DNA from: Zygnema cylindricum
Taxonomy: Eukaryota; Streptophyta; Zygnematophyceae; Zygnematales; Zygnemataceae
DNA length: 64,000 nucleotides
Assembly: GCA_037447655.1 (NCBI GenBank)
Contig: JBBHKE010003125.1
Coordinates: forward strand, 226,316-290,315
Direction: 5' to 3'
Of the stretch, positions 8,510-63,540 are shown one piece after another; the stretch's first letter is position 1; the number at the start of each line of letters is the position of its first letter. A program made the position numbers and the translations under genes. The notes beneath the pieces are model-generated. The model made no database searches, was not told the origin of the DNA, and saw only the letters and a list, made by a program, of their open reading frames with translations.

Positions 8510-10077
8510 AGTTATGGGCCCACCCTCTAGGGTGCCCATATTTGATAGATCAAACTTTCTTTATTAGGAAATGATGATGGAGGGAGAACTATTTGAGAAG
8601 TATCTATGGGGCATAGTGTCTGGACAAATTCGATGCCCACCTCCACCTGGGTTTGGAGGGACACGTTTTTCTAGCACCTCCGCCTCTACAGTTGGTAGAA
8701 CAGCTGCCACCATCATCGAGGATGAAGATGAGGAAGGAGAAAAGATTGTCATGGAAGGAGAAAAGGAAGGAGTTGCAACTCAAGTGACACCATTGCCGAA
8801 GGCGATACCGGCAGCAACACCACCAAAAAACGGCGACAAGGGTTCAGACCGAAAGATCAAAGTATGAAAAGTGGAACTACAAAGACAAGGTTGCTAAGCT
8901 CTTAATTCTTAAAAGTGTAGAAAAGGGCATTGCCATTCCCCTTATGCATGTCAAATCTTCATCTCAGATTTGGATATCACTAGTTAACAAATATACGAGT
9001 GGATCATTGCAGCAACAACAGTTGGCCAAAAATAAGATTATAGCTTATACTTATAAAGCAGGAAGTATGAATAATTATTGCAATGATTTAGGAGCATTAT
9101 TTGGAGAGTTAGAGAGTGCAGGTAACTCATGGTCCGAGAGAGAAAGAGTGAACACATTAATGATGAAACTACCTGAAGAGTATGAGAATATCATTAACTG
9201 ATTGCAAGACATAGGAGATAGCAATTGGAATTGGGATGACACAGTGGGAATGATTTTAGTGAAAGAAAGCACCATAGAACTTAGGAGAGGGAGTCCAAGT
9301 GTTGAAGCATTGTCTGCAGGAGCTGATTGGCGGAAGCGTGATGAGGAGAGAGGGAAAGATCCCTATCGAAACTTTGGTGGAAGAGGACAAGGAGGTGGCA
9401 GATTTGATAGACAGGGGAGAGGAACTTCTCGAGGAGGATTATGTCACTTTTGCAAGAAACCGGGACACTATATGGCAAATTGTATCAAACTTGCAGATCT
9501 TCGACTGAAAGATGGCCAAGGAACCTCAAAGGATGGAGGAAAGAAAAAGGCTTTCGTGACTCAAGTTCATGATGAGGAAGTGGAAGAAAAATCTGAACCA
9601 AAAGAGGAACTTGAGGAGCTTCTTCTTAATTCGAAAAACACTGAAAAACATGTCGACATTCCACGGAGACAAAAGTGTGCTTTTGGAGGTAAGAGGGATC
9701 CACTCGAGGATGGGTGGATCATAGACTCAAGGGCTTCAATGCATATGTGCAAAGATAAGCGGTTGTTCACTAAACTAAGAAAGATCCCAACAGTTGAGAT
9801 ATTGTACGAAGATGGTAGAGTAGAAACCACAAGTCTTGTTGGAACTGTTGACTTGAAGGTTCTAGTTGATGGAAATGCCTCAATTGTAACACTCTCAGAC
9901 GTTCTTTACATTCCACAGCTTAGCAAGAACCAAGTCTCAACAGCTGTCCTAGATGAAAAGGAGTTTGAAATAGGAACTAGGAAAGGAATCTTCACAGCAA
10001 ACTTTGATAATGAGGTTTATTTCATAGCTAAGAAGGGCAGTCAAGGAATGTTCAGAATTGTTCTTTGCAATGAATAG
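8490..10077 (+). pseudogene. Copia C gag and protease
   Basis: This encodes the copia capsid followed by the aspartic protease. The frame opens at ATG 8490 in the LTR (METKEFQVMGPPSR) and meets a TAG at 8565-8567 where relatives have Trp. The gag core (QQQQLAKNKIIAYTYKAG, ELESAGNS) ends at a TGA at 9199-9201 where Arg is expected. The zinc knuckle CHFCKKPGHYMANC lies at 9442-9483 and is intact. The protease motif is WIIDSRASMHMC, with Gly of DSGA replaced by Arg, so activity is doubtful. A further stop ends the frame at 10077. Domain order and spacing match copia A. Confidence 0.85.
8510..8524 (+). promoter_or_regulatory. Copia C primer-binding site (half-tRNA type)
   Basis: AGTTATGGGCCCACC directly after the LTR end: 14 of 15 bases match the complement of plant initiator tRNA-Met positions 25-39. 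It lies in frame inside gag and encodes VMGPP. Confidence 0.75.
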
Positions 10078-10099
10078 AGTGTTCTCTACTCGTGTGCAA

Positions 10100-10913
10100 G
10101 TGAGATGATGCTTTGACATAAAAGGTTGGGGCATGTGCATCTAGATAGATTAAAGAAAATGAAGAAAAAGGGAATAGTGAGGGTATTACTTTTGAGGATG
10201 ATGAGACCTTTGATGATTGTAGTGGATGTGCCCAAGGGAAGATTCATAGACTTCCATTTCCAAAGGCAACCACATTAAGAAGAGAGAAATTATTAGATCT
10301 AGTTCACACTGATGTTTGGGGACCTGCTAGGTATGCTTCACATGGGGGGAAGAGATGGATGTTAACCATCACAGATGATTGGTCTAGATACACCAAGGTA
10401 TACTTTCTTAGACATAAGTCAGAGGTATTAAGATGTTTCAAAGAGTATAAAGTATAGAGTGAAAAACTACATGAAACCTCAATAAAAGAGATAAGAAGTG
10501 ATAATGGGAAAGAATACACCTCAAGGGAATTTGAAGAATATCTTAAAGAAGAAGGAATTCATCATGAGAAAACTGTTTCCTATAATCCGGAACAAAATGG
10601 AGTGGCAGAAAGAGTGAATAGAACTTTAGGAGATATGTCTAGAAGTATTTTAACTGATAAGAGGATAGGGTTGCAGTTTTGGGCGGAGTCTATGAACTAT
10701 GCTAATTTCATCAAAAATAGAGTCCTAACTTCAGCAAATAAGGAGGAAACTCCGTATGAGAGGTGGACAGGAAGAAAGCTTGATTTGTCTATTTTGAGAG
10801 TGTTCGCAAGTCAAGTCTACAGTTTGGATTCCGATAAGACTATATAGAAGTTAGAGGGGAGAGGGAAGCCAGGATATCTTGTAGGATATGATGAGAGCAC
10901 AAAAGGAAACCGA
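10100..10913 (+). pseudogene. Copia C integrase
   Basis: This would insert the cDNA into the host genome. The pre-integrase segment HKRLGHVHLDRLKKMKKKG starts just after a TGA at 10114-10116 (Trp expected). The core shows HTDVWGP, RSDNGKEY and NPEQNGVAER, i.e. all three acidic residues of the D,D35E triad. Stops at 10455-10457 and 10845-10847 replace Trp codons (TGG to TAG). The segment after the core (GYDESTKGNRVYDLKKRDII) continues into the long frame starting at 10914. It is inactive because of the stops. Confidence 0.85.
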
Positions 10914-12203
10914 GTGTATGACCTTAAAAAGAGAGATATAATTTTAGTAAAACACATAGTGGTGATGAATGAAGAGAAGTCCATTGATCCATTCAAATAT
11001 AATAAGGAAGTCAAAATCAGATTTGAAACGGATCAGTTTTCTGACTTTGATTTTGAAAATGAAGAGAAGGAAGAGGGGGAAAAAGAAAAATCTGCAGATC
11101 TACCAAAGGAGAAGGAGGAAAGGACAACATCCGAGGCAACGCCACAATACGAAGTGGAAACCGATGAGGAACTTGATGAGACACCGGAATTGGAAGATAG
11201 GGGAGCTGAAAATCTCCCTCAACGAAACCCAAGGATGCCTTCCATACCGGCGTCCGATTTTGAAGGGGGAAGAAGAAGTAGTAAACAACTTCAAGAAAGA
11301 CAAGTAAATAACCAACTCACAAAGATGTCTCACCCAGATGAACCTCAAACATACTTAGAGGCCATAAACACTCTAGAAAGTAGCCGGTGGATCACAGCTA
11401 TAAATGAACAAATGGCCTCTATCATGGAAGCCAATACATGCCAGTTGGTAGATTGTCCACCGGACCGAAAACCGATTGGATGTAAGTGGGATTTTAAACT
11501 TAAATTAAACCCGGATAATACCATTGAGATGTACAAAGCTAGGTTAGTTGCAAAAGGTTATACTCAGAAAGAGGGGATAGACTACGAAAAAACCTTTACA
11601 CTTGTAGTCAGATTTCCTTCTGTTAGAATCCTTTTAAGTATAGCGGCAGCGGAGGATATGGAAATCCACCAGATGGATATTAAAACGGCCTTTTTGCACG
11701 AGGAGTTGGAAGAAGAAATTTACATGAGGCAACCGGAAGGATTCGTGGAAAGTGGGGAAGAAAATAAAGTTTGCAATCTGATAAAATCACTCTATGGAAT
11801 TAAGCAAGCCTCGCGACAGTGGAATATAAAGCTCGACGAATTTCTGACCGGTTTGGGGTATATCAGAATTAGTTCAGATCACTCTATATATTTATTTGAG
11901 GATGAGAATGGAGTGATATTTATTGCTATTTATGTGGATAATTTGTTGGTCTTAAGCAAGTCCTTAGATAAAATTAACAAACTAAAACGGGATCTTAGAA
12001 GCAGTTTTGATATGAAAGATCTTGGGGAAGCAAAGTACATTTTGGGAATTCAGATGGAGAGAGATAGAGGGAATAAAATTATAAGACTCACTCAAAAAGA
12101 AGCAATCGGTAATATGCTAGAAAAATTTCAGATGGAAAAAGCAAACGGATATACTACTCCTATAGATTTGAAGAAAGTGTTTGAGGGAAGTGAAGAGAAT
12201 TGA
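10914..12203 (+). pseudogene. Copia C integrase tail and reverse transcriptase
   Basis: A 429-codon open stretch. Residues 1-130 are the acidic integrase-to-RT linker. From about residue 145 it is the copia reverse transcriptase, with [58 protein letters not shown] and the catalytic region IAIYVDNLLVLS (11931-11942). The catalytic YVDD is YVDN, so one of the two aspartates is lost. A TGA ends the frame at 12203 where relatives have Gly. RNase H follows in the next frame start at 12225. Confidence 0.9.
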
Positions 12204-12224
12204 ATATTTATCATTAATGATGAG

Positions 12225-12926
12225 ATGGATGAGATAGAAAGAAAATTTATGGAAAATATTCCTTATCGGCAAATTGTAGGTAGTTTAATTTATTTTATGA
12301 ATTGTACCCGTCCGGATATAGCTGCAGCTGTAGGTGTCCTTAGTAGAAATCTAAATGAACCAAGAAAGAGAGACTGGGAGGCTGCCAAAAGGGTGATGAG
12401 GTATCTTGTGGGGACAAGGGAATTATGGTTCCATTTGGAAGGGGAGCATACTGACATTGCCACTTGGAGTGATGCCAGTTATGGAGATGTGCCTTTAAGA
12501 AGGTGTACGATTGGATATGTGTTGCAAATTGAATCCGGTGCATGTTGTTGGAGTAGGAAGCAACAAAAAGTAGTTGCTCTGTCTACAATGGAGGCTGAAT
12601 ACATGGCTTCCTGTGCTGCCACCAAAGAATTAATGTGGGTTAAATCTCTTCTTGAAGAACTTGGGTTCATGAAGTCTGGAACTCAAAATGTTTTTTGTGA
12701 TAATCAAGCTGCTATCTCTATTGCAGCTAATCCGAAACATCACTTCAAAGCGAAGCATATGGATATTAGACTAAGCTTTGTCAGAGAGAAGGTAGAAAAT
12801 GCAATTATTAAACTGGTTCATAAAACTGATAGAGAAATGATTGCAGACATGCTGACAAAACTAGTGCCTTCCCCTAAGTTGATTTATTGCAGAGAAAACT
12901 GTGGATTAAAATTGAAAAGTGACTAG
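12225..12926 (+). pseudogene. Copia C RNase H
   Basis: This is the C-terminal RNase H of the copia polyprotein, which degrades the RNA strand during cDNA synthesis. Typical segments are YRQIVGSLIYFMNCTRPDIA, TWSDASYGDVPLRRCTIGYV, STMEAEYMASCAATKELMW and FCDNQAAISIAANPKHHFKA. The acidic residues of the RNase H fold (SDAS, MEAEY, CDNQA) are all present. The frame is open to its natural stop at 12924-12926, 13 bp before the LTR, and is the best preserved part of the element. Confidence 0.9.
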
Positions 12927-12939
12927 GAATTAAGGGGAG

Positions 12940-13826
12940 TGTTGAAAAGAGGTAATTAATATTTCACTTCCCTTTTTTACTTTTGCTTCAAAGAAAGAGA
13001 GTGAGGATCAAAGGCGCGCCATGGCTGCCGCAATATTTAGAAAGTGGCAGTTTTTGAAGTAAAGGGTATTTTGCTAAAATGGTGCCTAAGCCTAGATTTT
13101 AACCTACTACCTCTAGACTCTCCATAACCTGACCTTAACCATTAAGGCGTTACGAAACAATACACTTGACGGGTTTCATAAATATATAAACATTAACGCA
13201 ACAGCTAATTAACAGCAGACTAACCAAAAAGAGCAATTTCTGCATGTACGCGAATCTGAATCGTGTAAAATATGTTTTGATCAGACGGCCGGCATTATAG
13301 CCGCCACGCGAAGTGAGCTTTTGGCGGCATACGGAGATATCGTCACGCGGTGCCACGTGGTGCCACATTATTTGATACCGGAGAAGATGAGAGGAGGAAC
13401 CATGGCTTCCGATTTGACAGGTGTCACCTTGTAGAGCTTGTCGTACAATAGTCGTACAATAAGTACATCGTCCATTGTACCTTCTTGTACTATATAGTGT
13501 TCCTATTGGAATAGGGTTTAGTAGTAGGTAGTCGTGAGTAGGCAGACCAAGACTTAGTAAAATTTAGGTACCTCTCTCGCTAAGAGAGCTTGTAACTATA
13601 AAGGTCATCTTTGACCAGCCATAACTTACTGCTCAGGTGAGCAAATTCAGTGATTCTTTTTGCATTTGACTCAGGGGAGTCTTGTCCTCACAAGGGTGAG
13701 AGTGGTCAGAATATTTTTGTGCCTGGGCGGCGCTTATTCAGCGGGAAAGTAGAAGGGGAAAATATTATCCTAGAGGCTTTACATAGGCTGCTCTTTCTGT
13801 AGGTCAATGGAGACCACAGATTTTCA
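12940..13826 (+). repeat. Copia C 3' LTR
   Basis: 887 bp, starting TGTTGAAAAGAGG after the polypurine tract TAAGGGGAG (12931-12939) and ending GATTTTCA. The first 370 bp are unlike the 5' LTR of the same element, while 13310-13826 match it well. It contains CACGTG (in gccacgtggtgcc) and repeated TTGTAC motifs. It has an A-box-like CCTTAATGGTTAAGG in antisense but no convincing B-box. Confidence 0.75.
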
Positions 13827-15240
13827 CTTTCAATCTTTGTCTCTTATTCTGTTGCCAATATATATCTTGGATTTAGTGCTAAACCTAAAATTTGCATCAA
13901 ATTTAGGGTTAATCTGCGGAATTAGGGATTGGCGGCAGAATGAGGGTTTTGTTTGCAGAATATGGTTGCAGCAGATTTAGAGTTTATTCCTTTTTTATTC
14001 GAGTCCTTAGGTCGATACCCTTCTATTCCTTGGCTTGAGATTTGGAGTTTTGGCCGTCTAGAATTAGGGTTTCACATTGGAATTAGGGCTTTTTAAGTGG
14101 AATTAGGGTTGGCGATTGACTTTGGATTATTGTGGTCACAAGTTTCGCTATATATTTGAAGTTTGAGCGGCCTCCGACTTTATTCTAACACACTTTTCCT
14201 ATCTATCACATTTGTGTGTCTTATTGGTTAATTTTCTTTCACCAAACGCTTTATTTTTTCCCTTCCATTGGTTCCCAAACATTCCACTGCATACATCCTT
14301 ACGGTATGGAGGGTCTCGCGGAGGGTTGTTTTGAAAACGCTGCTCATAGCGGATTTCGTGGAGCGAATTTTATCCCAGGGAGCTATGCGAAACCTAATTT
14401 GCTTCGAACAAGTACTGTTCACCCTTAGTGCTCACCAGGGTACTAAAGGTGTATGTAAGTAGCCAATGCCTTGCGGGTGCAGGAGCAATCCCATTTAGTG
14501 TGGACACTCGTGTAAGGGATCGGTGTGGAGTGGTTCCGTCGTGAACCTCTCTAATTAAGCATTAGCATTTTCTTGCTTTCCTTGCATGCTATCTGACCCT
14601 AAGTGGCCTTAGAATTTCGTATGACAATCAGGAGTGGGATTTCTTGCTAGATCTTGCCGTGGGTGGCACTGTGTTGACCTCTTTCCGGCTCTGTTGTTGT
14701 AGATCTGCACCCAAGGGTGCCTGGATAGCAATTTTCTTGTTTTTATAGATGTGGCCTTTTGGCCTTGCCAACTGTTTGCAGGGTAGAGGTTTTGGTAAAC
14801 AAGCTTTTTGCTATATATGACCATCGGGTCTTGATAGTGACTGAGTGTGTTGACTGGACGAGTGGATTCGTCTGACACATGTTGCATCTCGTTTAGGTCA
14901 TGCGAAACATTTCAGTATTGTAGTCAGGGTTTTCCCCTTGGTTTATGCCCACAGATTGGGATAACCTTCCTTATTTATCCTGGTCCACCCGAGGTGGTAC
15001 ACTGTATTTTCCTTGGCATTTAAATCCTTCGGATTTTTCCGAATCGTTGACCACATCCGATCCAATTGCGGATCGCAGATCGACGTTAGTGCGGTCTGGT
15101 CTCACACCTACGTTATCATTGTCCTCAGTTTCATCTAGGTCATAACCAGAGAGGAAAGAATAAGACTTTCGGAGGAAACCTTTCCTACTCCTCACACTCA
15201 TAGGTTCCTTGCTAGCCAAGCTTCAACACAACCGGCTCAT
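13827..15240 (+). other. Unassigned region before gypsy-3 gag (possible LTR and leader)
   Basis: No protein domain seen. The position directly before gypsy-3 gag suggests that its 5' LTR and leader lie here, but I could not define LTR ends or a primer-binding site. The part from 13840 to 14200 is rich in TTAGGGTT-like motifs. Several short open frames exist, none with recognisable content. Confidence 0.35.
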
Positions 15241-15255
15241 CCTCCTCTTTACGAC

Positions 15256-16285
15256 ATGGCTTTCTTTTCAGAGGGATCTATGTGTAGGATGCAATTCTCC
15301 TTTTTCGGATTAAAGGACACCATGTCGTTATCGCATTTCAGGATATTATACGACACGGAAATGAGGGATTTAGCATTTAGATATGAGGATTGGTTTGACC
15401 TCATTGTCGTCTTTTTCCCTTCTCGGTCCATACCTCCGTGGTACGGCCCTCACTCTCTACACTCGCAAGTACGAGGATGTTCTTGCGATGACGGAGTATG
15501 CGGCTCCCTTTGCTGGGTTACAAGAAGTCCTTAGCCAAGTGGATATCCCATATCAGGCACCAAGAGCAACGCTATTAGATGCTAATGGGGATGAGTTGTA
15601 TCCAGCTATCTCCAAGGTTCCTCGTCAGTATGCCGTGGCTGCCCGAGCGGCGGTCCCACCTAGAGCAAGGGGAACCATTCTTTTACGTGATCTTGTGTCT
15701 GTCATGTTTGGCATCCTCGAAGACGAGTACCGGATGCAAAATCCGGATCAGATCAAAGAGTTGATGAACTTCGAGCGTAAGCGAGGTGAAACTGCTCATG
15801 CGTTGCGAGCTCGGATAGAAACTCCGCGAGAGGTATTAGCGGACCTCATGTCTGATGCGGAGGCTATCCAAAAATTTGTGGGACAATTTCCAGGTCCATC
15901 AAAGAGGTTTATCCAAAACCACCTAAGCCAGATGTATGAACTGAAATTCACCTTTAAGCAAGCAGCTCAATATGCGGTAGAGTATCAGATGAATACATCG
16001 TGGTGGGACGCCCATGAGCGGTCTAAACCTCCTCATAGGGAACCGGCTAATCCATCTCCTCCTACACCTAAAAACCAATGGCCTCTTAATAGGCCCCAAA
16101 GGACGCCAGCCATGGGAACTCCACTTGTTAGTCCCGGAAACCGAATGTGTTTTCGATGTGGAAAATCTGGGCACGATGGCCACATGTGTCTTGACAAGGC
16201 GGCCACTTGCACTCATTTCCACGAAAAAGGACGTTACGTTCATAGGTGCCACATCATGGACCTTAATTTCACTTATCAAAATTAG
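15256..16285 (+). pseudogene. Gypsy-3 gag
   Basis: Capsid and nucleocapsid of the gypsy-3 element. A first frame from 15256 passes into the main 300-codon frame (15383-16285) through a frameshift around 15410. The main frame has a helical capsid part, including LMNFERKRGETAHALRARIE and LADLMSDAEAIQKFVGQF, and a proline-rich linker. It ends with a CCHC zinc knuckle CFRCGKSGHDGHMC (16148-16189) followed by a second Cys/His cluster CTHFHEKGRYVHRC. The final TAG follows TYQN. Tandem knuckles are usual in gypsy gag. Confidence 0.75.
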
Positions 16286-16315
16286 ATAAAGAATGGCGGA
16301 ATTCCGGCCTGTTCT

Positions 16316-17330
16316 GTGAAACTAGTCACTCTACCTAAAGAGACCGGTAAAGAGGAAGCTCCTCCTAAGATCTCTCGTAGAGAGAGAGAGAAGGCAGAGC
16401 TGAAAGCCACAATGGCGACCATGATGAAAGAGCAATTTGTAGCTTTCGTGGCAGAAATGAAACCCCAGTTTACTGGGATGGCTAGGACCGTTGTTCACAT
16501 GTCGTCGTTGGCCGGGCGAACCTTTGGGGATTCCACCGTTGAACAACAGGTGGCCACATTTGAAAAGGGCTCACCAGACAATAAACGAGTGGGAAAATTA
16601 CAAAATTCTGGTGTCCCACTCTCATTTGCACAAGAGCCTCTGCCTTCCCTACCGAAAACCGCTTTTATATCGCGGCAGAGGCCCTTACTATATTGGATGG
16701 CACTATTCATGAGGCTCATCGGGTGAAGAAGCGCTTAAGTATTCTTTCAGCGATGTTGGAGGATGTACCTAAAGCCCTTCCCCTCGTTGATGAGGTCGCA
16801 GCTGCAGCCGCTTTGAGGGCTCTGCAGTTAAACTGCAGTCTCTCAGCGGTTCAACTGGTAACTACGGAAGAGCGTCGTAATCTTGATCCCCACATCAATT
16901 TCCTTTATAACTCTAGGCGATCATTCTCAGTGAACGGTGTTCACCACACTCTTCCTCTCATGGATACCGGGGCCAAACTCGTGATCCTCAGATCTGGATT
17001 TGCGCTCAAGCTTGGTCTCAGAGGAGATAAGTTTCAAGCGACAGCTACCCCCCTTCTTACTTCGGTTAGGACCACGGAGCCGGTCCTCGGAATTACAAAG
17101 GACCCGCTCAGCTTTCGGTTTCAGACAAGAACCGAAAATAAGTCCGTTGAAATTGTTGCAGAGCATTAGTCACTAAATGTGACGATTATGAGTGTTTGGT
17201 GGGTGAAGACGTTATATTCCGAATTGGCGTTGGTGTGGATATGCACGACCAAAAATTTTCTTACCGACTGACACACTTTCGGGGCGCAAAATCTGCCTCC
17301 CTCTCATTTCAGCCCGTCGACCTTTGCCTA
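16316..17330 (+). pseudogene. Gypsy-3 linker and aspartic protease
   Basis: After a charged helical linker (16316-16700, SRREREKAELKATMATMMKE), the frame starting at 16693 enters a retropepsin. It has the substrate-loop region VNGVHHTLPLMDTGAKLVIL with an intact catalytic D-T-G (Asp at 16963), followed by SGFALKLGL. The frame stops at 17169, but protease-like sequence continues past it (DDYECLVGEDVIFRIGVGVD, about 17178-17240), matching the second conserved region of gypsy proteases. The methyltransferase domain follows directly. Confidence 0.7.
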
Positions 17331-17364
17331 TTATGGCTCACTCGGCTACACAATTCCCGCATTT

Positions 17365-18537
17365 TTGGGGAAATTCGTTGGGGAGGAAATTTTCCACTCT
17401 CTTTTGGCCGAAGAAATTATACCGGATAGTTTTCCTTTACCCGAGCTTTTTGCAAAACCGGGTTTTCTTATAAATACTCACACATTTGACAATATTTATA
17501 AGGCCACATTATCTATTCCATTAACGACTAACCCTCATATACCTAGAGTTGCAACCGATCCTTTGGGTTTTTTTCCTATCAGTTGGAAGCCCGTACAGTT
17601 GAGTCCTCATACGGACGGGGTCATTATTTTAGATCTATTCGCTGGGATCGAAACTTCACTATTGTCATATTTACGGAATGGTATCCTCATCTGTCACTAC
17701 TATGCAGTAGAAATTGGTGCATTAGCTAGAAAAGCACAATTGCACCACAATAATCTCATACTTTCACAGTATCCACAATTGTTTCCAAAGTCAGCCTTTC
17801 TACACCTACACACTGCTTTTCCACAAGACATCCGCATCCTTAGTAATCATCATCTACGGGATGTCAAACTGATATTCTTTGTTTTTGAGTGGTGGGAGTG
17901 TCAAGGCATGTCTCAGGCCGACAATGGTCTTGGTTCGGCAGATCCGCGTACCAAATTGTTTTTTGAGCTTTTGAGGGTCCTTCATTTTCTTCAAACCATG
18001 GCCAAGCTTGTCTGATACATTTTAGAGAACGTTGCCGCTTATAATGATCCTCGTCCTAGAGTTCTAGCTAACTATAAGCGCATAGAACACCTTATCGGAC
18101 CCTCGCTAATTATTGATGCCGCTCGGCATGGGTTTTTGGCACATTGTGTTCGTTCCAAATGGACGAACCTAATCGATGTTTGTCGTCTTCGTGAGGCTAA
18201 TTTGTTTATAAGTCCTCCCACTACAGACATTATGACCGCTTTGCTTCCCTTTCACAAAGTCGAATCATGTGTCCAAATTGACTACCTTCCGAATTACAAC
18301 ATTAATGTATCTGGCTTGCCACTCAAGGTCCTTTGTACTTTAGTGGCTTACACCAATTCCCATGCATACTCTCATAACGGTGTAGGCATGCTCCGGAATA
18401 ATGTCACTGGAGAGTTAGAGGAGCCTACGGCCACAAAACAGGAGCATCTCATGCATTTTATTCCAGGCACGACTGCGGCCCCCGGCCTTACAGATAGACA
18501 CTGTTGCACTTTGTTGGGTAGGGTCGAGGATCCTTAG
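17365..18537 (+). pseudogene. Cytosine-5 DNA methyltransferase domain inside gypsy-3
   Basis: This would transfer a methyl group from S-adenosylmethionine to cytosine in DNA. Conserved C5-methyltransferase motifs appear in order. Motif I is DLFAGIETSLLSYLRNG (17632), where the usual FAGIG has become FAGIE. The motif II acidic residue is in YYAVEIGALARK. Motif IV is WECQGMSQADNG with the catalytic Cys at 17899, Glu replacing the usual Pro. Motif VI is ENV at 18025-18033. A motif VIII-like RSKWTNL lies at 18151. The C-terminal GELEEPT and PGTTAAPGLTDR resemble motif IX. A TGA at 18013-18015 splits it just before motif VI. No motif X was found. It sits between protease and RT, so it would be made as part of the polyprotein. 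I identify the family with good confidence; the sequence is now defective. Confidence 0.8.
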
Positions 18538-18749
18538 TCATTATCATTTTTCTTAGGTCTCGGCCTTGCAGCTGGTCGCTACGCACAGAATCACCCCGTG
18601 TAACCCGGGAATCTGGCTCTCCTTCACGTCTTGTTTCCTCTCGCATCTCTCCTAGTCTCAAGGGAAATCCATTTCATATTTTTCTCTTCCCTTCTCTCAC
18701 ACCTGCTGTTAACGACATCTCCATCAATGATTTCCTCAACCCCAGTCAT

Positions 18750-19766
18750 ATGTCTTTGGAAATCCCGGCCTATACAGCCGTTCAATCCACAATAACATCG
18801 TTTCCCGGTCTAGCACCACACTGGACAACTTCATTTCCGACGCGTAATTCCCACCATTGGGTGAACTCCGTGCTGCATACCCCGGTAAAATACAGGTTAG
18901 GCCACTCCTTTATCGCCGATGAGCAAATTGCATTTGCTCAGGCCATGGAAGCTTTCACTATCAAGAGCCTTGAGACGCCGAAGTGGAAGTTCGGTTCCAA
19001 TCTCATAAAGGTAGAACATGCACTATTAAGTGACACAGTCACCCGTCATATAGATGCGTTTGCTTTCCGAATGAATGACCTTGGACGTCATTCTAATTAC
19101 AAATTATCAATCGACCTTGAAGATGATCGACCTATATTTAAGCCGAAACTGCATCTCTCCGAAATGGAGTGGGAGATGGTGGACAAAAGGTGCGCAGAAT
19201 TGAAAGAAGCCGGTCTAATCTATTGGTCCGATTCCACCTTTGCCATCCCCACAGTCATGCCTAGGAAGAAAGATTCCGACGGAAATTTTACTTAGCGAAG
19301 AATGTGTGGGGACTACCAAGAGCTCAATGCTCGGACCGTTCAAGACCGCCACCCTATGCCTCTAGTGGAGGAAATATTTGACCATGTAGGTGGTGCGAAG
19401 TTCTTTAGCATTCTTGACTTACGTCAAAGGATTAACCAGATTGAAATCAAGGAAAGGGATCGACATAAAACTGCATTTTGGGGCAGTGATGGTCGGTGGG
19501 AATGGGCAGTCATGCCTTTTGGTCCTAAGAACGCACCCGCCGTGTTTTAAAAAGTCATGGATTCGATGCTGGGTGGATGTAAATTTGCCCGGTGTTACAT
19601 CGATGACTTGATATTCGCTTCCGCAATGGTTGAGGAGCACGCCTGCCATGTTGAGTGGGTTCTCACCGAGTTAAAGAAGGTCAGGCTGAAGTGTCACCCA
19701 GCCAAGTGTACTTTCGGTGCGTAGAGAGTGCCCTATCTCGGCCATTTTATTTCGGCTGAGGTCATC
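18750..19766 (+). pseudogene. Gypsy-3 reverse transcriptase, truncated
   Basis: Ty3/gypsy reverse transcriptase. Landmarks in order are KRCAELKEAGLIYWSDST, MCGDYQELNARTVQDRHPMP, FFSILDLRQRINQIEIKERD, KTAFWGSDGRWEWAVMPFG, and the catalytic CYIDDLIFAS (19596-19607), which is intact. Stops at 19293-19295, 19548-19550 and 19722-19724 each fall where Gln is expected, consistent with C-to-T changes. The usual Y-x-G-Y-H-Q is RQRINQ. Sequence ends at YLGHFISAEV where the copia LTR begins. Confidence 0.9.
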
Positions 19767-20821
19767 TGAAACTTTGAGACCTCCATAAGTCCTCAAAGTG
19801 GATAGCTTCCAAGAAGCCTCTAGGATAACCCTGACCCCTTTGTGTTTCAGCAAAAATAACTGCCACCCTCGCAGACAAAAACTCTGACCAACTTCACCCC
19901 TGTGAAAACAAGACTCCCCTGAGTCAATAGCAATAAGAATCTCTGAATTTGCTCCCTGAGCATTAAGTTATGGAGGGTCAAAGTTGACCTTTTGTTCAGA
20001 AGCTCTCTGGTAGAGAGGGTCCTATCTTCTAATTTTTCTAAGTCCTATCTCTCTCACAGACTCTATCTACTGATGTACGGAGCCAATCAGATTTCAGTTT
20101 CGTACACAAAAATACAGCTGCCGGTGTACTTTATGTACGGCCATTGTACGACATGGCCTAAATGTCGAGAAATGGTATGTCCAGATTCGCTCCCTTAATC
20201 CTCGGAGATGCCGCGATCCAATGTCATTCCGCCACGTGTCATCCGATGTGGCGATGACCACAAACGGCTGAAATCCTCTTCCGCGATCTCGGCGTTAATT
20301 CTGGCCGTCCGATTAAATTCATATTTAATCGTAGCCGTAATAAATACATGCGCGGTATTCGTTTCACTAAAGAAATAAATGCGCGGTATTGGTTTCTTAT
20401 CCGTACTGAAATCCGTACTTTTACATTTACTGGATATATGTCTCCCGTAAGCAGTTATAGTTAAATGAACTTTTCTATGTATAAATATTTAAATAATTAT
20501 CAAACCCCATAATACGTAACACTACTTCTAGACTTAACGGCTAAGGCAACCGGCTACTGGCTGTCTGCCGGCCGGTAGGTACCAGGATCAAATCCTGTCG
20601 CCGGCAATATCTTTTAGTAAATTAAACTCCTAACTAAAATATATTTTCCCGTAAACCTCTAGATAGCCTAGGTAGCCATGGCTCTAGCTCCCTCTCCAAT
20701 TTCTCAGTGACTGCGACAAGTTTGAGAAGTTGGAGAGAGAAGTTAGTGGTTGACTACCTCGGCTTCTTTCTTTTTTCTATTCAGACCTATAAAATACTTT
20801 AAAAAACCATTAATTTCTACA
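19767..20821 (-). repeat. Copia B 3' LTR
   Basis: 1055 bp, minus orientation, starting TGTAGAAATTAATGG (right end) and ending CAAAGTTTCA (left end at 19767), inserted in gypsy-3 RT. It is closely similar to the D and A LTRs. The tRNA-like cassette is at 20531-20606 on the plus strand and CACGTG at 20233-20238. A polypurine tract (minus AATAATGGGAG) abuts it at 20822, confirming that it is the 3' LTR of the RNase H fragment to the right. Confidence 0.85.
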
Positions 20822-21202: not shown

Positions 21203-21500
21203 NNNNNNNNNNNNNNNNNNNNNNNNNNNNNNNNNNNNNNNNNNNNNNNNNNNNNNNNNNNNNNNNNNNNNNNNNNNNNNNNNNNNNNNNNNNNNNNNNN
21301 NNNNNNNNNNNNNNNNNNNNNNNNNNNNNNNNNNNNNNNNNNNNNNNNNNNNNNNNNNNNNNNNNNNNNNNNNNNNNNNNNNNNNNNNNNNNNNNNNNNN
21401 NNNNNNNNNNNNNNNNNNNNNNNNNNNNNNNNNNNNNNNNNNNNNNNNNNNNNNNNNNNNNNNNNNNNNNNNNNNNNNNNNNNNNNNNNNNNNNNNNNNN
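21203..21500. other. Assembly gap (298 N)
   Basis: A run of unknown bases. The left flank is a minus-strand copia element and the right flank is a plus-strand copia LTR. The true gap size and even the adjacency of the two sides are uncertain. Confidence 0.99.
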
Positions 21501-22426: not shown

Positions 22427-22429
22427 AAT

Positions 22430-23499
22430 ATCTAAAGGTTTTAAGAGCACTCTAGGTTTTTGGTTACTAGGTGTACTGTGTTGGCAAGGGACACAATTTT
22501 CCACGTGTTTCGACAGCTTTTTTGTCATTTTGATCCAAAACAATCTACAATGCATTAGACTAAGAGTTTTATCTCGACCTAGATGTCCTAAATGCTCATG
22601 GGTTTCTTGCAAAACTTGTTTTCTTAAGTGTCCCATATCACGAATGCATAATCTATCCCCTGTTTGCAAATAGAGTAAACCATCCTATATTCGAAAGTTT
22701 TTGACATGCCTCTCATTCAATGTTTCAGAATTACCTTCCGAAATATTCTTATAAATCATAACAAATATTGATCTTTATCAAAACCATTTCTAACAACATT
22801 TAAAAACAATTCACCTTGAACCACCACACTTATTTCAAAACATGAACTTATAAGACTTGCAACTACATTTGTCTTTCTAGGAATATGTTTGACATTAAAT
22901 TTGAAATACGCCAATTTTGCATCAACTTAGCTTGTCTGCTAGTCATAATTTGTGCATCACTTAATCTTTGTAGATAGTAGAGTGCCTTATTATCACAGTG
23001 AACTGTAAATTATTTACTATGCAAATAACAACGCCATTTCACCAATGCACGAACTATTGCGAGTAATTCCTTTTCCTATGCTTTATAATTCTTTTCAGCA
23101 TCATTGAATTCCCTAGACTCAAAAGCAAGAGGGTGAAAATGTTCGCCAACTTTTTGAATTATGACTGCTCCGAGACCAATATCCGATGCATCAATAGTGA
23201 TTAGAACTTCAAATTCCCGAGCAGGATTAGGATACACCAATGTAGGGGCAAAGGTCAACTTCCCTTTAAGTGCTTCAAAAGCTCTCTCCTGATCGGTTCG
23301 CCACACAAACGTCTTCTTCTCCCGAAGTAAATCCATCAAAGGTGCGGCAATCATACGGAAGTTATTGATAAATTTCGTGTAATAAGTGGCCAATCCAAAA
23401 ATGATCTAACTTCTGTGACATTAGTGGGTTGCTTCCAATTTTTTATTGCAGTAATTTTGGATGGATGTGTTTTATCACCTTCCCCACTGACTATATGTC
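22430..23499 (-). pseudogene. Gypsy-2 RT end, RNase H and integrase zinc-binding domain
   Basis: Minus-strand gypsy pol fragment. From right to left it has the RT thumb (HIVSGEG, THPSKITAIKNWKQPTNVTE), then FVWRTDQERAFEALKGKLTF and the RNase H start TIDASDIGLGAVIIQ with HPLAFESREFNDAEKNY. After an eroded stretch (22670-23075) comes the integrase HHCC zinc finger with HEHLGHLGRDKTLSLMHCRL and CVPCQHS. It is cut on the left by the copia LTR at 22426 and on the right by a gypsy LTR at 23500. Non-functional. Confidence 0.85.
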
Positions 23500-26563: not shown

Positions 26564-28090
26564 GGTTATGGGCCCACCCTCTAGGGTACCAATCTTTCAT
26601 GGAACTAGCTTCATATACTGGTAAGTATGATGATAGGAGCTCTATGCGAAAAAAGGTTTTGGGGACTAGTGAGTGCACGGTTAGGGCGTCCATCAAGTCT
26701 TGGAATTCCTCCAGGGTTTGGAGGAACCAGATTCACCAGGAAAAAGGATCCACCTTCAACAGAGGAAACAAAAGAAGGAGAGGTGGTGGACAAAAGAAAG
26801 TAGAAGGAGACGACCACACTAATAGCAACTGGTTCGACATTCATGTCACCTATTCCGAGGAATGAGGAGAATGATACTGAAACCTGGGACTTGAACAATA
26901 TGGCGACAAAGCACTTCATCCTACGCCATCTCACTTAAGGACTTGCTTGTCCTCATTTGCGGGTAGAAAGGGCATCCGATCTTTGGATGGCTCTCATAGA
27001 GATGTACCGAAGTGGTACGATTCAGCAACAACAGTTGGCTGATCAGAAAGTTAAGGAGTACCTATACAAAGGGGGAAATATAATGGATTTTTGCAATGAG
27101 CTTGCTACACTCTTCAGGGAGCTAGAGAGTGCAAGAAAAGATTTTAGTGAAAAAGAAAAGGTTAACTGTTTACTGATGAAGTTACCTGATGAGTTTGTGA
27201 ACATAGTTTACCGTGTGCAGGACTTGCCTGACTCAAGGTGGATATGGAACTCAGTGGTAGGAATGATTCTCGTTCAAGAGAATACAATTGAGATCCGAAG
27301 GGGAGGAAAGAGTGGCCAAGCCTTAGCAACAGCGACTGATTGGAGGAACAGGGATTCCCGAAAACCGGTCGGAAACTATGGGGGTAGGGAGCAGAAAAAA
27401 CAGGCCGACGAGTTCGAACCAAGGGCTCCCAAAGGTTTATGTCATTTTTGTAAGAAACCGGGGCACTATATGGCAGAGTGCACTAAGCTAACCGAGCTTC
27501 GGTTAAAGGAGGGGCAGACCGGTGGTACCCCGAGAGGAAAGAAAAAGGCCCTTGTCACACAGGTACTTGAGGTGGAATCCGAGGACGAGGACGATGAGCT
27601 CCTTTTGGATGAGGAATTGGAGGCGAAAAATGAGGTCAAAATTCCACGAAGGCAGAAATGTGCTTACGGTGGATTGAAAGGTGAAGCAGGCTGGATTGTA
27701 CATTCAAGTGCCTCCATGCATATGTGTAAGGATAGACACCTGTTCACTAAGATAAGAAAGATTCCCACCGTAGAGATAGAGTACGGGGATGGGAGGATAG
27801 TCACCACTACTCTTGTAGGATCGGTAGATCTGAAAGTGTTAGTAGAAGGAAAAACATCCATATTAACATTCTCCGATGTATTGTTTATTCCGGAGCTGAA
27901 CAAAAATCATATCTCTACATCAGTATTAGATGATAAGGGTTTTTTCACTAGCATTAGGGAAGGAGTCTTTACTGCTAGTTTTGAGGAGGATGTCTATTTC
28001 ATTGCTGAGAAAGGTATTCATGGGATGTTTAGGCTGATCTTAAGTAATGAAAAGATAAACTTTATTATGCTGTTGTTCATGATATTATGA
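26544..28090 (+). pseudogene. Copia A gag and protease
   Basis: Capsid plus aspartic protease. The frame starts in the LTR (MEVSKF) and is closed at once by the mutated LTR end. Gag sequence continues through 26580-26940 in shifting frames. A TAA at 26936-26938 replaces the Gln seen in copy D (HLTQGLA). The open part (26957-28090) holds the gag core (QQQQLADQKVKEYLYKGG), an intact zinc knuckle CHFCKKPGHYMAEC (27440-27481) and an acidic stretch. Its protease motif is GWIVHSSASMHMC, so the catalytic Asp is His. A frameshift near 28085 leads into integrase. Confidence 0.88.
26564..26578 (+). promoter_or_regulatory. Copia A primer-binding site (half-tRNA type)
   Basis: GGTTATGGGCCCACC starts at the base after the LTR. 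It is the exact 15-nt complement of plant initiator tRNA-Met nucleotides 25-39 (tRNA recalled from memory). The primer would therefore be a 5' tRNA half ending in the anticodon loop rather than the intact 3' end. Confidence 0.85.
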
Positions 28091-29211
28091 TGTGGCATAA
28101 GAGGCTTGGGCATGTGAATCTAGATAAGTTAAGAGAGATGAAAAAGATGGGAGTGGTGGAAGGGATTCAGTTCAGTGAGAGTGATGATATAAGTGATTCT
28201 AGTGGATGTGCTCAAGGTAAAGCACAAAGATTACCCTTTCCTAAGTCAGCCACCTATAAGGGAGAAAAAATTCTAGATCTAGTACACACAGATATTTGGG
28301 GACCGGCTAAAGTGCCCTCACCGGGGGGGAAGAGATTTATGATGACTATAACTGATGATTGGTATCGGTATTCCCGGGTATATTTTTTGAAAAACAAGTC
28401 CAAAGCTGAGGATTGTTTTAGACAATATAAAGCGTGGAGCGAAAAACTCCATGAAACTCCAATCAAGAGAGTAAGGAGTGACAATGGTGGAGAGTATACT
28501 TCTAACCAGTTTGAGGATTTTTTGAGGGAAGATGGTGTTCAACACCAAAAGACAGTTCCAGAAAATCCAGAACAGAATGGGGTAGCTGAAAGGTTAAATA
28601 GAACACTAAGTGATAGTAATAGAAGTATGTTGTCAAATAAAAAGATAGGAAAAAGGTTTTGGGCAGAAGCAATGAACTGTGCTAATTACCTCAAGAATAG
28701 AGTTCTTACTTCAGCTATAAAAGATCAAACACCTTATGAGAGATGGACAGGCCGGAAACCCGACATATCTCACTTAAAGGTTTTCAGCAGTCAAGTGTTC
28801 AGTCTAGATACTGATCGGTCCAATTGGAAGCTAGATCCTAAAGGAAAACCGGGATACTTATTAGGATATGATGAGGATGTTAAAGGATATAGAGTTTATG
28901 ATCTAAAAAGGGAAGATATAATCCTAGTAAAGCATCTAGTAGTTATGGATGAAAGAAAGTCTGTGGATCCGTTCAAATATACGAAGTCAGTAAAAATCAG
29001 ATTTGAGTCAGAAAATTCCGATGACTTTGAGCTTCCTAACTATCCAGGTTTTAGAGAAGATAACATTCTTGTAGGTACAAATCTGACCGAAAAGGACTCG
29101 GCTGTGGAAACTCCAGTGACAACTCTACTCGAAGCGGAAGACGTGGTGGAAATTGATTCGGAATCAAGGGATAGGGGAGAAGTCGAGTTTGTTCGTAAGA
29201 ATCCACGATAA
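28087..29211 (+). pseudogene. Copia A integrase
   Basis: Integrase with an open 374-codon frame. It begins with the zinc-binding pre-integrase part (WHKRLGHVNLDKLREMKKMG and SSGCAQGKAQRLPFPK). The catalytic triad is complete: Asp of HTDIWGP at 28291, Asp of RSDNGGEY at 28480 and Glu of NGVAER at 28588, the last two 35 residues apart as in D,D35E enzymes. The C-terminal part contains GYDEDVKGYRVYDLKREDII and the acidic linker before RT. A TAA at 29209-29211 ends it. This is the one enzymatic domain of the element that looks intact at the motif level. Confidence 0.9.
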
Positions 29212-29337
29212 CCATCTATTCCAGCCTCAGATTTTGAGGGGGGGAGGAGAAGTAGCAAAAGACTGCAAGAAAAACAGGTTAATAACAAGGTAACTAAACT
29301 ATCTCATCAAGATGAACCTTAAACTTATGGAGAGGCG

Positions 29338-30087
29338 ATGACTTGTCCAGAAAGAAACCGGTGGAAGACAGCCATCAATGAGGAGATGGCTTCAATCATG
29401 GCAGCCGATACTTGGGAGCTGGTGGACTGTCCACCTAACCGAAAACCAATTGGTTGTAAGTGGATTTTCAAACTAAAACTGAATCCAGATAACAGAATCG
29501 AGCGCTACAAGGCCAGATTAGTGGCAAAGGGATTTACACAAAAGGAAGGAATTGACTACGAGGAAACCTTTGCCCAGGTGGTCAGATTTCCCTCCGTCCG
29601 CATACTTCTCATTTTAGCAGCGGCGGAAGACATGGAAGTGCATCAGATGGACATCAAGACAGGCTTTTTGCATGGAGAATTGGAAGAGGAGATCTTCATG
29701 CGACAACCCGAAGGTTTTGTGGAGGAAGGAGAGGAGAGTAAGGTATGCCGGCTGATTAAATCTCTTTATGGTTTGAAACATGCACCTTGACAATGGAATA
29801 AGGAGCTTGATGAGTTTCTTACCAGTCTGGGATATATTCGGATCAGCTCAGATCACTCAATCTATGTTTTCGAATATGAGGAAGGTTTTATATTTATTGC
29901 AATTTATGTTGATGGTTTGTTTGTTTTAAGTAAATCAATGGAAAAAATTAACAAACTGAAAACCAATCTTAAGGGGAGATTTGAAATGAAGGATATGGGA
30001 GAAGCAAGATATATTTTGTGAATTCAAGTAGAGAGAGACCGAAAAAGGAAAATTATAAGACTGACTCAAAAGGAAGCAATAGGGAAC
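29338..30087 (+). pseudogene. Copia A reverse transcriptase
   Basis: Copia RT with [58 protein letters not shown] and QMDIKTGFLHGELEEEIFMR. A TGA at 29788-29790 replaces Arg in the HAPRQW motif (CGA to TGA), and a second TGA lies at 30019-30021 where Gly is expected. Upstream, a TAA at 29320-29322 replaces Gln of DEPQTY. The catalytic box is YVDG (29905-29916) instead of YVDD. The enzyme is dead as encoded. Confidence 0.9.
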
Positions 30088-30900
30088 ATGCTTGAAAAAT
30101 TTCAAATGGATAAAGGTAATAGTTGTACAACTCTAATAGAGTTGAAGAAGGGAAGTGAGGGGAGTGAGGAAGAAGGAGTCATAGTCTTAGACGAGGAATT
30201 ATCTTCTGATGAACAGAAGTTCATGCAGACTATTCCTTACAGGGAAGTAGTGGGAAGTCTAATCTATTTTATGAACTATACCCGGCCGGATTTAGCTGTA
30301 GCTGTAGGAGTGCTGAGTAGAAGTCTAAATGCTCCCACTAAGAAGGATTGGGAGGCAGCTAAGAGAGTCCTTAGATATTTGGTAGGAACTAGGGATCTAT
30401 GGTTGCATTTGGGTGGGGACAATACTGACATCACTACTTGGAGTGATGCCAGTTATGGTGATGCTCCGATGAGGAGATGCACTTCTGGATATGTATTATA
30501 TGTGGGTGATGGGGCTTGCTGTTGGAGTAGCAAACAGCAAAAGGTTATTGCTCAGTCCACCATGGAGGCTGAGTATATGGCCTCTTGCTCTGCTGTAAAA
30601 GAATTGATGTGGGTCAAGTCTTTGCTTGGTGAGCTTGGTCACCTTAAGAGTGGTGTGCAGAAAATATTTTGTGATAATCAGGCAGCAATCGCTATTTCTG
30701 CCAATCCTAAACATCATTTTAAAGCCAAACACATGGACATCAGACTCATCTTTGTTAGAGAAAAAGTAGAAAACAAAATAATCAGTTTAGAGTACAGACC
30801 AGATAGTGAGATGGTAGCAGATATGATGACCAAACCTGTGCCTTCCCCTAAGCTAATTTTTTGCAGGGAGAAGTGTGGTCTGAAATTAAAGATTGACTAG
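30088..30900 (+). CDS. Copia A RNase H (open reading frame to natural stop)
   Basis: An open frame of 270 codons covering the end of RT and the whole RNase H: EVVGSLIYFMNYTRPDLAVA, TTWSDASYGDAPMRRCTSGY, STMEAEYMASCSAVKELMWV and FCDNQAAIAISANPKHHFKA. The acidic catalytic positions are all kept. It ends KLKID then TAG at 30898-30900, just before the polypurine tract. It is marked as coding because this segment is unbroken. In the element it would only be made as the end of a polyprotein that is now interrupted upstream. Confidence 0.85.
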   Translation: MLEKFQMDKGNSCTTLIELKKGSEGSEEEGVIVLDEELSSDEQKFMQTIPYREVVGSLIYFMNYTRPDLAVAVGVLSRSLNAPTKKDWEAAKRVLRYLVGTRDLWLHLGGDNTDITTWSDASYGDAPMRRCTSGYVLYVGDGACCWSSKQQKVIAQSTMEAEYMASCSAVKELMWVKSLLGELGHLKSGVQKIFCDNQAAIAISANPKHHFKAKHMDIRLIFVREKVENKIISLEYRPDSEMVADMMTKPVPSPKLIFCREKCGLKLKID

Positions 30901-47999: not shown

Positions 48000-49378
48000 G
48001 AAAAAATTAAGTAAATCATGTAGGCCCAAACATGGGATTTGGTGCGACTTCCTCTTGGAAGGAAGGCTATTGGGAGTAAATGGGTGTTTAAGTTAAAATT
48101 GAACCCAAATAATACCATAGACAGGTATAAGGCTTGTTTGGTTGCTAATGGATATAATCAAAAAGAGGGGATAGATTATGAAAAAACATTCTCACCTGCT
48201 GTAAGGTTTCCATCTGTCTGCATCTTACTTACACTAGATGCCATAGAGAATTTTGACATCCACCAAATGGATGTCAAAACTGCCTTTTTGCATGGTGATT
48301 TAGATGAGGTCATTTATATGAAACAGCCAGAGGGTTATGAGGAAGCAGGAAAAGAAAATATTGTGTGCAGACTTTTAAAATCTTTGTATGGCTTAAAGCA
48401 AGCCCTGCGGCAGTGGAACCGAAAGTAAGATGAGCTCTTGACAAGATTAAGATTTACAAGAATTAGTTCTAATAATTCAGTATATCTGATGTGTTGTGAT
48501 AATCCTGATCAGGTAATATTCATGGTTGTGTATGTTTATAATCTGCTACTAATCTGTAGGAACAAAGAAAGAATTGTTAGAGTAAAACACGCTCTCAATA
48601 CACAATTTGAAATGAAAGATTTGGGTGAGGCAAAAATTATTATTGGAATACAAGTTGAAAGAGATAGAGAAAAGAAAATAACAAGGCTAGCTCAGAAAAA
48701 AAAAACGATAGAAATTATATTGGAAAAATTTGGATTGGCTAATGCCAAAGGTATTGTAAAATCTATGGAGTATAAGCAGAAAACTTGAAGGAATGGAGCA
48801 TGAGTTTGAAGTCATGATAGATGAGAAACTCACCGCAGAAGAGAAAAAATTATGTCTCAAGTACCTTACAAACAAGTAGTAGGGAGTAAGATTTATTTCA
48901 TGAATTGTTCTAGGCTTGATATAGCTGCATCTTTTTGGTGTATTGAGTAGAAGTCTCCAAAATCCATGAAGGAGAGACAAGGAGGCTGCAAAAAGGGTCT
49001 TAGATATCTTGTTGGGACTAGAAATCTGTGGCTTACTTTGGGAGGGGATAAGGTTTGCATTAATGCTTGGAGTGATGCTAGCTATGGTGATGTGCCTCGT
49101 AGGAAGTCTATAACTGGGTATGTCATTCAAATTGGAAGTGGAACTTGTAGTTGGAGTAGTAAACTTCAAAATTCACGGCTCAATCTACTATGGAAGCCGA
49201 ATACATGGTTGCGAGTGCAGCATTGAAAGAGCTGCTTTGGATTAAGGCATTTTTTCAATAATTGGCTTTTACACAACATGGTACACAAATAATGTAGTGC
49301 GACAATCAGGCGGCCATTTCTGTGGCTACAAACCCAAGTCACCATTTTAAGAGTTAGCATATGGACATTTGACTAAAG
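48000..49378 (+). pseudogene. Copia F RT and RNase H, 3' truncated
   Basis: [62 protein letters not shown] and a catalytic YVYN (48531-48542) in place of YVDD. RNase H fragments are AWSDASYGDVPRRKSITGYV, TMEAEYM-like sequence at 49190, CDNQAAISVATNPSHHF near 49300, and LKS. Similarity ends at about 49378, just before a T-rich stretch and the repeat unit at 49408. No 3' LTR is seen. Confidence 0.8.
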
Positions 49379-62600: not shown

Positions 62601-63540
62601 AAAACACACGAGCTATCGAGATGCTATACACGTCAATAAAGCATGTGCTGTAGTGCTTCACCGTTTGGCTCACAACAAGCCTTTAATGGCTTTATCGAAA
62701 ATGTTTTGCATAGGAATTTCAACAATTACTAATTACACTGAAGATATTTGTTCTGCATTGGCGGGTCCCCTTCACAACACTTTTATTCAACGGCCACATG
62801 TACCAAAGTTACAATAAATCATTAATGGTTTCAATGAGTTAACAAGAATATCTCAAATTGGCGGGGTAATTGATGGGACGCACGTCTATTTTTCTAAGCA
62901 ACCAGTAGAAAACACATCTGAGTATTTCTATCGTTTTAGAAGACACAGTGTGACTCTTTAGGTAATCTGCGATCACCGTCTTCTATTTTGGGATGTTTTT
63001 GGTGACCGTCCAGGCTCGACACATGACTCTACAGTATTCCAAGCCTCCTAAATCTACACTAGTCTACGTAACCGCCAAATTCTAAAAGAGTCGGTTGATG
63101 AAATTTGTGGCACTTCAGTTCGGCGCGTGATCATTAGGGATGCCGCGTATCCATTGTCCAATTTTTTGATCAAAGGATATAGAGCAAGAGCTAGTGGAGA
63201 TGCAAGGAAAAAAGCTTTCGATAAAGCATTATCAATTGGGCGGGTTCGTTTAGAAACGGCGTTCGGCATTTTGAAGGGGAGGTTCGAAATGTTGAGGCGT
63301 ATAGCGGTTAAGGAGGAAATGGTTCCTACTGTTGCTGTGGCATGTTGTGTTTTACACAACTTCATCATTCGCAATAGGAAGACATTACCTACACGGTGGA
63401 GGCAATTTCGGATGCCGGATGCAAAAAATGGTGTGACACCACCTTCTCGAGGTGGGAGGAGCACGGCGAGAGACGCGTTATTTCGAAAATTTTGTAACGA
63501 CGATAATGTTGTGGCCGAAGATGATGAAGTGGATGAATGA
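62600..63540 (+). pseudogene. PIF/Harbinger-type transposase
   Basis: DDE transposase of the PIF/Harbinger superfamily (HARBI1-like nuclease). N-terminal helix-turn-helix-like part: VVLHRLAHNKPLMALSKMFC, STITNY. The catalytic acids are Asp in GVIDGTHV, Asp in FGDRPGSTHDSTVFQ and Glu in GRVRLETAFGILKGRFEMLR, all kept. The last open frame (63127-63540) runs to TGA and includes AVACCVLHNFIIRN, typical of the family end. Stops at about 62815, 62959-62961 (TAG where Gln is usual) and 63048 break it. No terminal inverted repeats were identified, and the usual Myb-like partner gene is not seen. Confidence 0.85.

Follow-up and report, generated by a model that had tools for sequence, protein, structure and literature searches.

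The kind of element to which the present locus belongs has already been described in Klebsormidium nitens, where the Pol of KnitGypsy-Dnmt3, a Gypsy element, includes an enzyme of DNMT3 type (PMC5890265, 2018); according to the legend of Fig. 4 of that work, its repeats are as in DIRS elements and its domains as in Gypsy elements. The same source gives a Ka/Ks below 0.2 for the DNMT domain of the K. nitens element, fewer element copies in K. nitens than in Symbiodinium, and no methylation by the K. nitens gypsy-type enzyme in yeast, a result that its authors call inconclusive. For SymbioDIRS-Dnmt3 of Symbiodinium, it describes repeats of the A-coding-B-A type and de novo CG methylation shown in yeast, and it proposes self-marking of cDNA for DIRS elements. 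The 2018 work on retrotransposon methyltransferases is cited in PMC6338049, while PMC12344493 mentions DNMT3 in LTR elements (called Copia there) and in DIRS elements of streptophytes and dinoflagellates. An earlier note made from the present locus had mentioned methyltransferases of charophyte retrotransposons, and PMC5890265 indeed contains the same kind of element.

With KnitGypsy-Dnmt3, as presented in PMC5890265, the elements analysed here share a DNMT3-like domain in a Gypsy Pol, unpermuted motifs, purifying selection and DIRS-like repeats; they differ from it in the ECQ form of motif IV in one of their families (family B), perhaps in the PHD finger that follows the integrase, and in the host genome and the high copy number. 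SymbioDIRS-Dnmt3 and SymbioLINE-Dnmt, described in the same source, are likewise retrotransposons with a captured C5-methyltransferase, but they have dinoflagellate hosts and use a tyrosine recombinase (DIRS) or an endonuclease (LINE), whereas the integrase found here is of the DDE type. Chromoviruses, as far as the sources available to us describe them, resemble our elements in having a module of chromatin-reading type at the integrase C-terminus; there it is a chromodomain, here a PHD finger with no chromodomain match. The uptake of an enzyme of nucleic acid modification is also known, according to the accessible text of PMC9289625, from an orchid Ty3/gypsy element with an m6A demethylase domain, which differs in that the domain is an RNA demethylase and the host a seed plant, while the enzyme here is a DNA methyltransferase.

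The fragment in the window

Within the 64-kb window, by which we mean the whole stretch of DNA that was analysed, there is almost certainly a dead fragment of a Ty3/gypsy-type retrotransposon with its own C5-methyltransferase (MTase). The fragment comprises a leader, gag, protease (PR), MTase and a part of reverse transcriptase (RT), and extends over 13827..19766 of the plus strand as a single unbroken match to the copies L013 (88.5%) and L030 (88.3%). The former, with 89.3% identity across 14500-19766, is the closest of the fetched copies. Elsewhere in the window no additional match to L013 or L030 was found, and terminal repeats, RNase H, integrase and PHD finger of a family B element were found nowhere within its 64 kb. 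Both cuts of the fragment are touched by dispersed repeats: the 5' cut by a plus-strand repeat of the direct-repeat family D1 (13600..13824; more copies at 22200 and 26337), and the 3' cut by the inverted-repeat arms I1, I5 and I7 (19764..20649, minus strand). Frames at 9202-12923, 26939-30897 and 48024-48785, which, by their motifs only, look like decayed Copia-like gag, integrase and RT frames, point to a possible origin of these repeats, as the latter may be parts of such elements.

A tblastn search with the 2,395-aa open frame of the intact copy L010 as a query placed gag, PR with MTase, and RT collinearly on the plus strand at 15253-19787, in agreement with the earlier reading of a C5-methyltransferase between protease and RT on one strand. 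The gag region, with its CCHC knuckles, is split over two frames (15253..16663), and PR and MTase together match at 16654-18597 with 54% identity. Queried with the respective pieces of L010, the aspartic protease region lies at 16879..17160 (56%) and the MTase domain of family B at 17593..18597 (67%), while a linker and the N-terminal two thirds of RT occupy 18618..19787 (70%), all on the plus strand; the unbroken match to L013 and L030 stops at 19766, inside this last stretch. The positions given in the earlier note for the protease Asp (16963) and the RT motif YIDD (19596) fall inside the matched protease and RT stretches. Its limits for the MTase domain, 17365..18537, were right as to the presence of the enzyme and too short on the right, where the domain reaches 18597.

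Motif IV of the window MTase reads W-E-C-Q-G (17893..17907, plus strand), which puts the catalytic Cys codon at 17899-17901, exactly where it had been predicted, and both motif VI (ENV) and motif VIII are kept. The domain contains an in-frame stop at 18013-18015, and the alignment of the window copy to L013 consists of three main pieces in three frames with 10 stops in total. Because of this decay the fragment scores weakly against Pfam: PF00145 gives 16.7 bits (E 0.0053), under the 22-bit cut-off, the protease profile PF13650 an E of 0.0064, also under its cut-off, and RVT_1 an E of 1.5e-7 (19296-19547), over its cut-off. The assignment to the C5-methyltransferase family thus stands for the relatives L010, L009 and L044, which PF00145 detects over the cut-off (E-values of 2e-11, 8e-13 and 5e-12), and falls short for the window copy taken alone.

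Copies, architecture and terminal repeats

The host assembly (352.8 Mb) was searched with the PF00145 profile, with the family B MTase, and with MTase and RT jointly, which yielded at least 123, 98 and 61 scored places among 782, 2,132 and 4,270 candidates, respectively; the joint query ranked full matches first and therefore cannot reveal gypsy relatives devoid of MTase. Merging of the three lists, with the omission of 9 of the 70 joint-query rows as extra pieces of elements already listed, gave at least 224 loci on 196 contigs. This is a rough lower figure, which includes a host exon, L007 (at least one such), excludes the window copy, and covers loci of which a part were inspected in sequence. 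The loci form two families, A with a PCQ and B (that of the window) with an ECQ in motif IV. Family A is divided into the subfamilies A1 and A2, the MTases of which are about 57% alike.

All 26 tabulated loci (L009-L034) were chosen for an MTase match, and most of them for a long open frame, so that the presence of MTase in them is given by construction and intact copies are favoured. The protease, identified by similarity within families (with weak Pfam matches in L006, L011 and L013), lies upstream of MTase in 26 of 26 loci (weak in L023), and RT follows MTase on that strand in 24; L018 and L023 are the exceptions, their RT match being a part of another element. A PHD match is present in 19 of the 26. 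The earlier note had named an intact frame in other copies as a check of its reading, and L010 provides it: gag, PR, MTase, RT, RNase H, integrase and PHD finger follow each other in its single open frame, in which PF00145, RT, RNase H, H2C2, rve and PHD score above their cut-offs and CCHC is sub-threshold. This frame is bounded by repeats that are 100% identical over 931 bp, and the open frame and the identical repeats indicate that the L010-type element was recently active. Long open frames covering PR, MTase and RT are found also in L011 and in L013, where the frame of 1,643 aa includes RNase H.

The affiliation of these elements to Ty3/gypsy follows from the best PDB match of the relatives, the Ty3 RT-RNase H (1e-79), and from the order RT, RNase H, H2C2, rve in L010, L009, L012 and L124. 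We rejected an assignment to the DIRS order, as the integrase is of the rve (DDE) type and no tyrosine-recombinase family appeared among the Pfam matches of the Pol frames. Yet the repeats follow the split-direct-repeat plan of DIRS elements. The layout of L010 is A (931 bp), body, B (242 bp), GC, A (100%) and B (99.6%). The B-A-B arrangement at the 3' end was seen in all five family B copies examined for it (L010, L011, L024, L030 and L013), and a 5' copy of A was found in L010 and, partially, in L024, L030 and L013. An ACA-GC-TGT join occurs in 7 of 11 family B loci examined (three others end at B and one is patternless) and in 3 of 7 family A loci, the remaining four ending at B. This join might be the untrimmed form of two cDNA ends, from which GC would be cut off by the integrase. 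Such a combination of split direct repeats with a DDE integrase raises the question of how reverse transcription proceeds. L010, the only long-form copy with both ends available, is flanked on both sides by the 4-bp TTGG, a single case of a possible target-site duplication; L009 and L026, the short-form copies with an available 5' end, gave no match. A short form, ending at the first B without the second A and B, was observed in L009, L012, L019, L029, L025, L026 and L031.

A scan of GTDB with the MTase alignment gave 239 relatives, the best 80 of which were examined further. The top relative, L044, lies on a contig of the cyanobacterial assembly AVDCRST_MAG81, and this contig (L044/L124) encodes PR, MTase, RT, RNase H, integrase and PHD finger, representing a third lineage, C, the MTase of which is 42-43% alike to those of families B and A. 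In lineage C, the ACA-GC-TGT join is present and no second B was found within the available stretch. As to how this gypsy element came to be binned with a cyanobacterium, the simplest reading is that it probably comes from a contaminating eukaryote. The same bin contains a further gypsy Pol, L125, with PF00145 absent from the 807 aa of it that were examined.

The methyltransferase and the PHD finger

Motifs I, IV, VI, VIII, IX and X follow in order in the alignment of the element MTases, and this order is the standard one, not permuted; DRM methyltransferases have a permuted motif order. In PDB, chains of DNMT3A are the best matches for either family (1e-10 and 3e-14), and bacterial enzymes come next; family A also matches DRM2 at 0.002-0.005, and a DNMT1 chain is in neither family's match list. 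Compared with solved structures, phages and prokaryotes, the enzyme appears DNMT3-like, DNMT3A being its nearest relative among the solved structures.

The MTases of A, B and C form one group (100/99) in a tree whose outgroups, a fragment of DNMT3A, four enzymes of prokaryotes and two of phages, are few and distant, lack plant DNMT3 and DRM, and have long branches flagged by treekit. One group of A, B and C (100/99) is seen also in the RT-RNase H-integrase tree, set against the Ty3 fragment and L125 and likewise given a long-branch warning. Moreover, the enzymes of the three lineages have a common insert between motifs II and III that is missing from the aligned phage enzymes. The agreement of both trees fits one old capture, of which, with outgroups so few and distant, it is no proof; judging from these sequence comparisons, it is likely that MTase was captured once, before the split of A, B and C.

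The enzyme is under purifying selection, yet it is less constrained than RT. The dN/dS of stop-free MTase domains ranges from 0.12 to 0.45, with a median of 0.25 (20 usable of 105 pairs, which are not independent; 81 saturated pairs were set aside, as were 4 whose dS does not exceed 0.03, among them one with a dN/dS of 1.26). The medians for RT and PHD are 0.13 (11 of 78 pairs usable) and 0.23 (17 of 120), again from pairs that are not independent. The dN of MTase, 0.12-0.16 within B and 0.38-0.41 between A1 and A2, where synonymous sites are saturated, as between subfamilies generally, exceeds that of RT in 42 of 45 shared pairs.

Motif IV of C5-cytosine methyltransferases contains Pro next to the catalytic Cys, and this Pro-Cys pair is present in family A (PCQ in 13 of 13 rows) and lineage C and absent from family B, where all 13 readable rows have ECQ (there are 14 with the window, L033 being unreadable); the rows are partly dependent, as L010 and L011 are nearly identical. 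Whether the Glu seen in the window is ancestral or a product of decay had been left open; its presence throughout family B rules out decay, and the PCQ of A and C indicates that ECQ was derived in B and kept. Within GTDB, viral_contigs and three aligned phage enzymes we saw nothing from which the ECQ form could have come, whether prokaryotic, phage or viral: among the best 80 of the 239 GTDB relatives, P occupies this position in 79 of 79 motif matches, although the search pattern allowed E; one scan of viral_contigs was without any relative and another gave two weak ones; and the three enzymes aligned of the 417 records of the phage search have PCQ. As the accessible text of the literature on retrotransposon methyltransferases contained no report of an ECQ lineage, the fixed ECQ motif appears new. 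The copy number and the third lineage appear so as well, and perhaps also the PHD finger; the main text of PMC5890265 nowhere uses the word PHD, and the finger may be known to its authors.

The PHD finger (PF00628) is located at the integrase C-terminus in L010, L012 and L124 and scores under the cut-off in L009; since it stands in place of a chromodomain, membership in the chromoviruses was rejected. That of family B is nearest to fingers of PHF12, BAZ2B, KDM5-type proteins, WSTF and PHF21A, with UHRF1 and AIRE lower, and the match of family A is weaker (4e-4). Several fingers of this group read histone H3 lacking K4 methylation, and the similarity suggests that the finger of the elements is a histone-reading type of domain.

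Host methylation and possible roles of the element enzyme

Retrotransposons are a classic target of DNA methylation, and an element in which a methyltransferase of its own has outlasted a long divergence is a natural experiment on the use of methylation to a parasite. The host itself probably carries a chromomethylase-like gene: L007 (1498-1740) is an exon-sized open stretch with the best match to chain 4fsx, presumably the maize chromomethylase, and alike (3e-28, vs. 2e-12 for the DNMT1 group), from which we conclude that the host probably belongs to the green algae or plants. At sites where two relatives agree, C-to-T changes in the window copy amount to 59 of 487 in CG, 45 of 412 in CHG and 80 of 1,537 in CHH context (p 9e-7 and 9e-5 vs. 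CHH). L031 is similar (32/483, 24/410 and 29/1,524, respectively), while in L033 there is an excess in CHG (43/505 vs. 53/1,627 in CHH) and the result for CG is unclear (25/550, p 0.18). In L013, the frame of which is open over a long stretch, there is no excess (3/419 CG, 4/334 CHG and 14/1,462 CHH). Old copies thus look as if they had been methylated at CG and CHG, and host methylation apparently reached them; this footprint neither shows nor excludes a role of the element's own enzyme. Since one genome contains PCQ and ECQ lineages, young and dead copies and a chromomethylase-like gene of the host, self-marking, silencing and catalytic change can be compared in it.

The explanation that we moderately favour joins the identity of the element with one old capture and with the retention of the enzyme for the element's own cycle. 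A DNMT3-like C5-methyltransferase would have been captured between protease and RT before the split of A, B and C. The protease would release it from the polyprotein, and, packaged with RT and integrase, it would methylate freshly made cDNA at cytosines; the PHD finger might direct the integrase to particular nucleosomes, and new copies would in this way enter pre-marked, in quiet chromatin. The self-marking role itself, put forward also in the earlier note, we regard as plausible but tentative, and rather doubtful when taken alone. The explanation as a whole is supported by the PR-MTase-RT order common to A, B and the unrelated assembly, by the number of loci, the recent activity of L010, the purifying selection, the two trees and the DNMT3A chains as best PDB matches, and by the CG methylation that published DIRS-type relatives perform in yeast (PMC5890265). 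Against it count the lack of methylation in yeast by the K. nitens gypsy-type enzyme in the same source, the lack of the usual Pro beside the catalytic Cys in family B, the weaker constraint on MTase than on RT, and the plant-like CG and CHG decay of dead copies, which marking did not protect.

That decay would also fit a different use of the enzyme, namely, that it restrains the element, self-methylation lowering copy number and damage to the host and thereby favouring persistence, an idea raised also in the discussion of PMC5890265. We consider it improbable, as the copy number is high and the probable chromomethylase of the host would account for the CHG decay without the element. A separate gain of MTases by the families, or their exchange by recombination, seems about equally improbable in place of one inherited capture. 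In its favour, neither tree settles the branching order of A, B and C, and between A1 and A2 the dN of MTase, given above, and of PHD (0.45-0.51) is far above that of RT (0.11-0.14); but the enzymes form one clade with the common insert, and the position of MTase in Pol and its PHD partner are identical in all three lineages. It is somewhat less unlikely, though still doubtful, that the family B enzyme lost or changed its cytosine methylation and was kept for another purpose, such as binding of cDNA or RNA or interference with host methyltransferases. Its fixed ECQ, set against the PCQ of A, C and the aligned phage enzymes and against the absence of E from the GTDB motif matches, speaks for such a change, whereas the Cys, Gln, ENV and the Arg residues of motif VIII are all retained, the domain is under purifying selection, as expected for a working enzyme, and the 13 ECQ rows represent fewer independent cases. 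A more elaborate and unlikely variant would make B a writer-reader element, in which an ECQ enzyme whose preference as to base, sequence or nucleic acid had changed would be combined with placement of new copies by the PHD finger according to the state of the H3 tail, and in which, with split repeats and a DDE integrase, the integrase would remove GC from the ACA-GC-TGT ends. Finally, it is exceedingly improbable that the domain is there through a chance insertion or has been misread out of decayed DNA. The score of the window copy under the Pfam cut-off might be a sign of this, but we rejected it because the loci number in the hundreds, one frame is intact and another assembly repeats the order; the domain is a captured, family-wide feature (26 tabulated and about 224 merged loci), as the earlier note had held.

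Apart from the family B fragment, the window contains on its minus strand an integrase H2C2 domain (22427-22684, E 5e-16) and an RNase H (23079-23405, E 7e-19) of another gypsy-type element, the RNase H being only 32% like that of family B. Positions 21203-21500 consist of 298 N, where sequence is masked or missing, and an open frame at 63052-63537 looks, by its motif only, like a PIF/Harbinger-type transposase.
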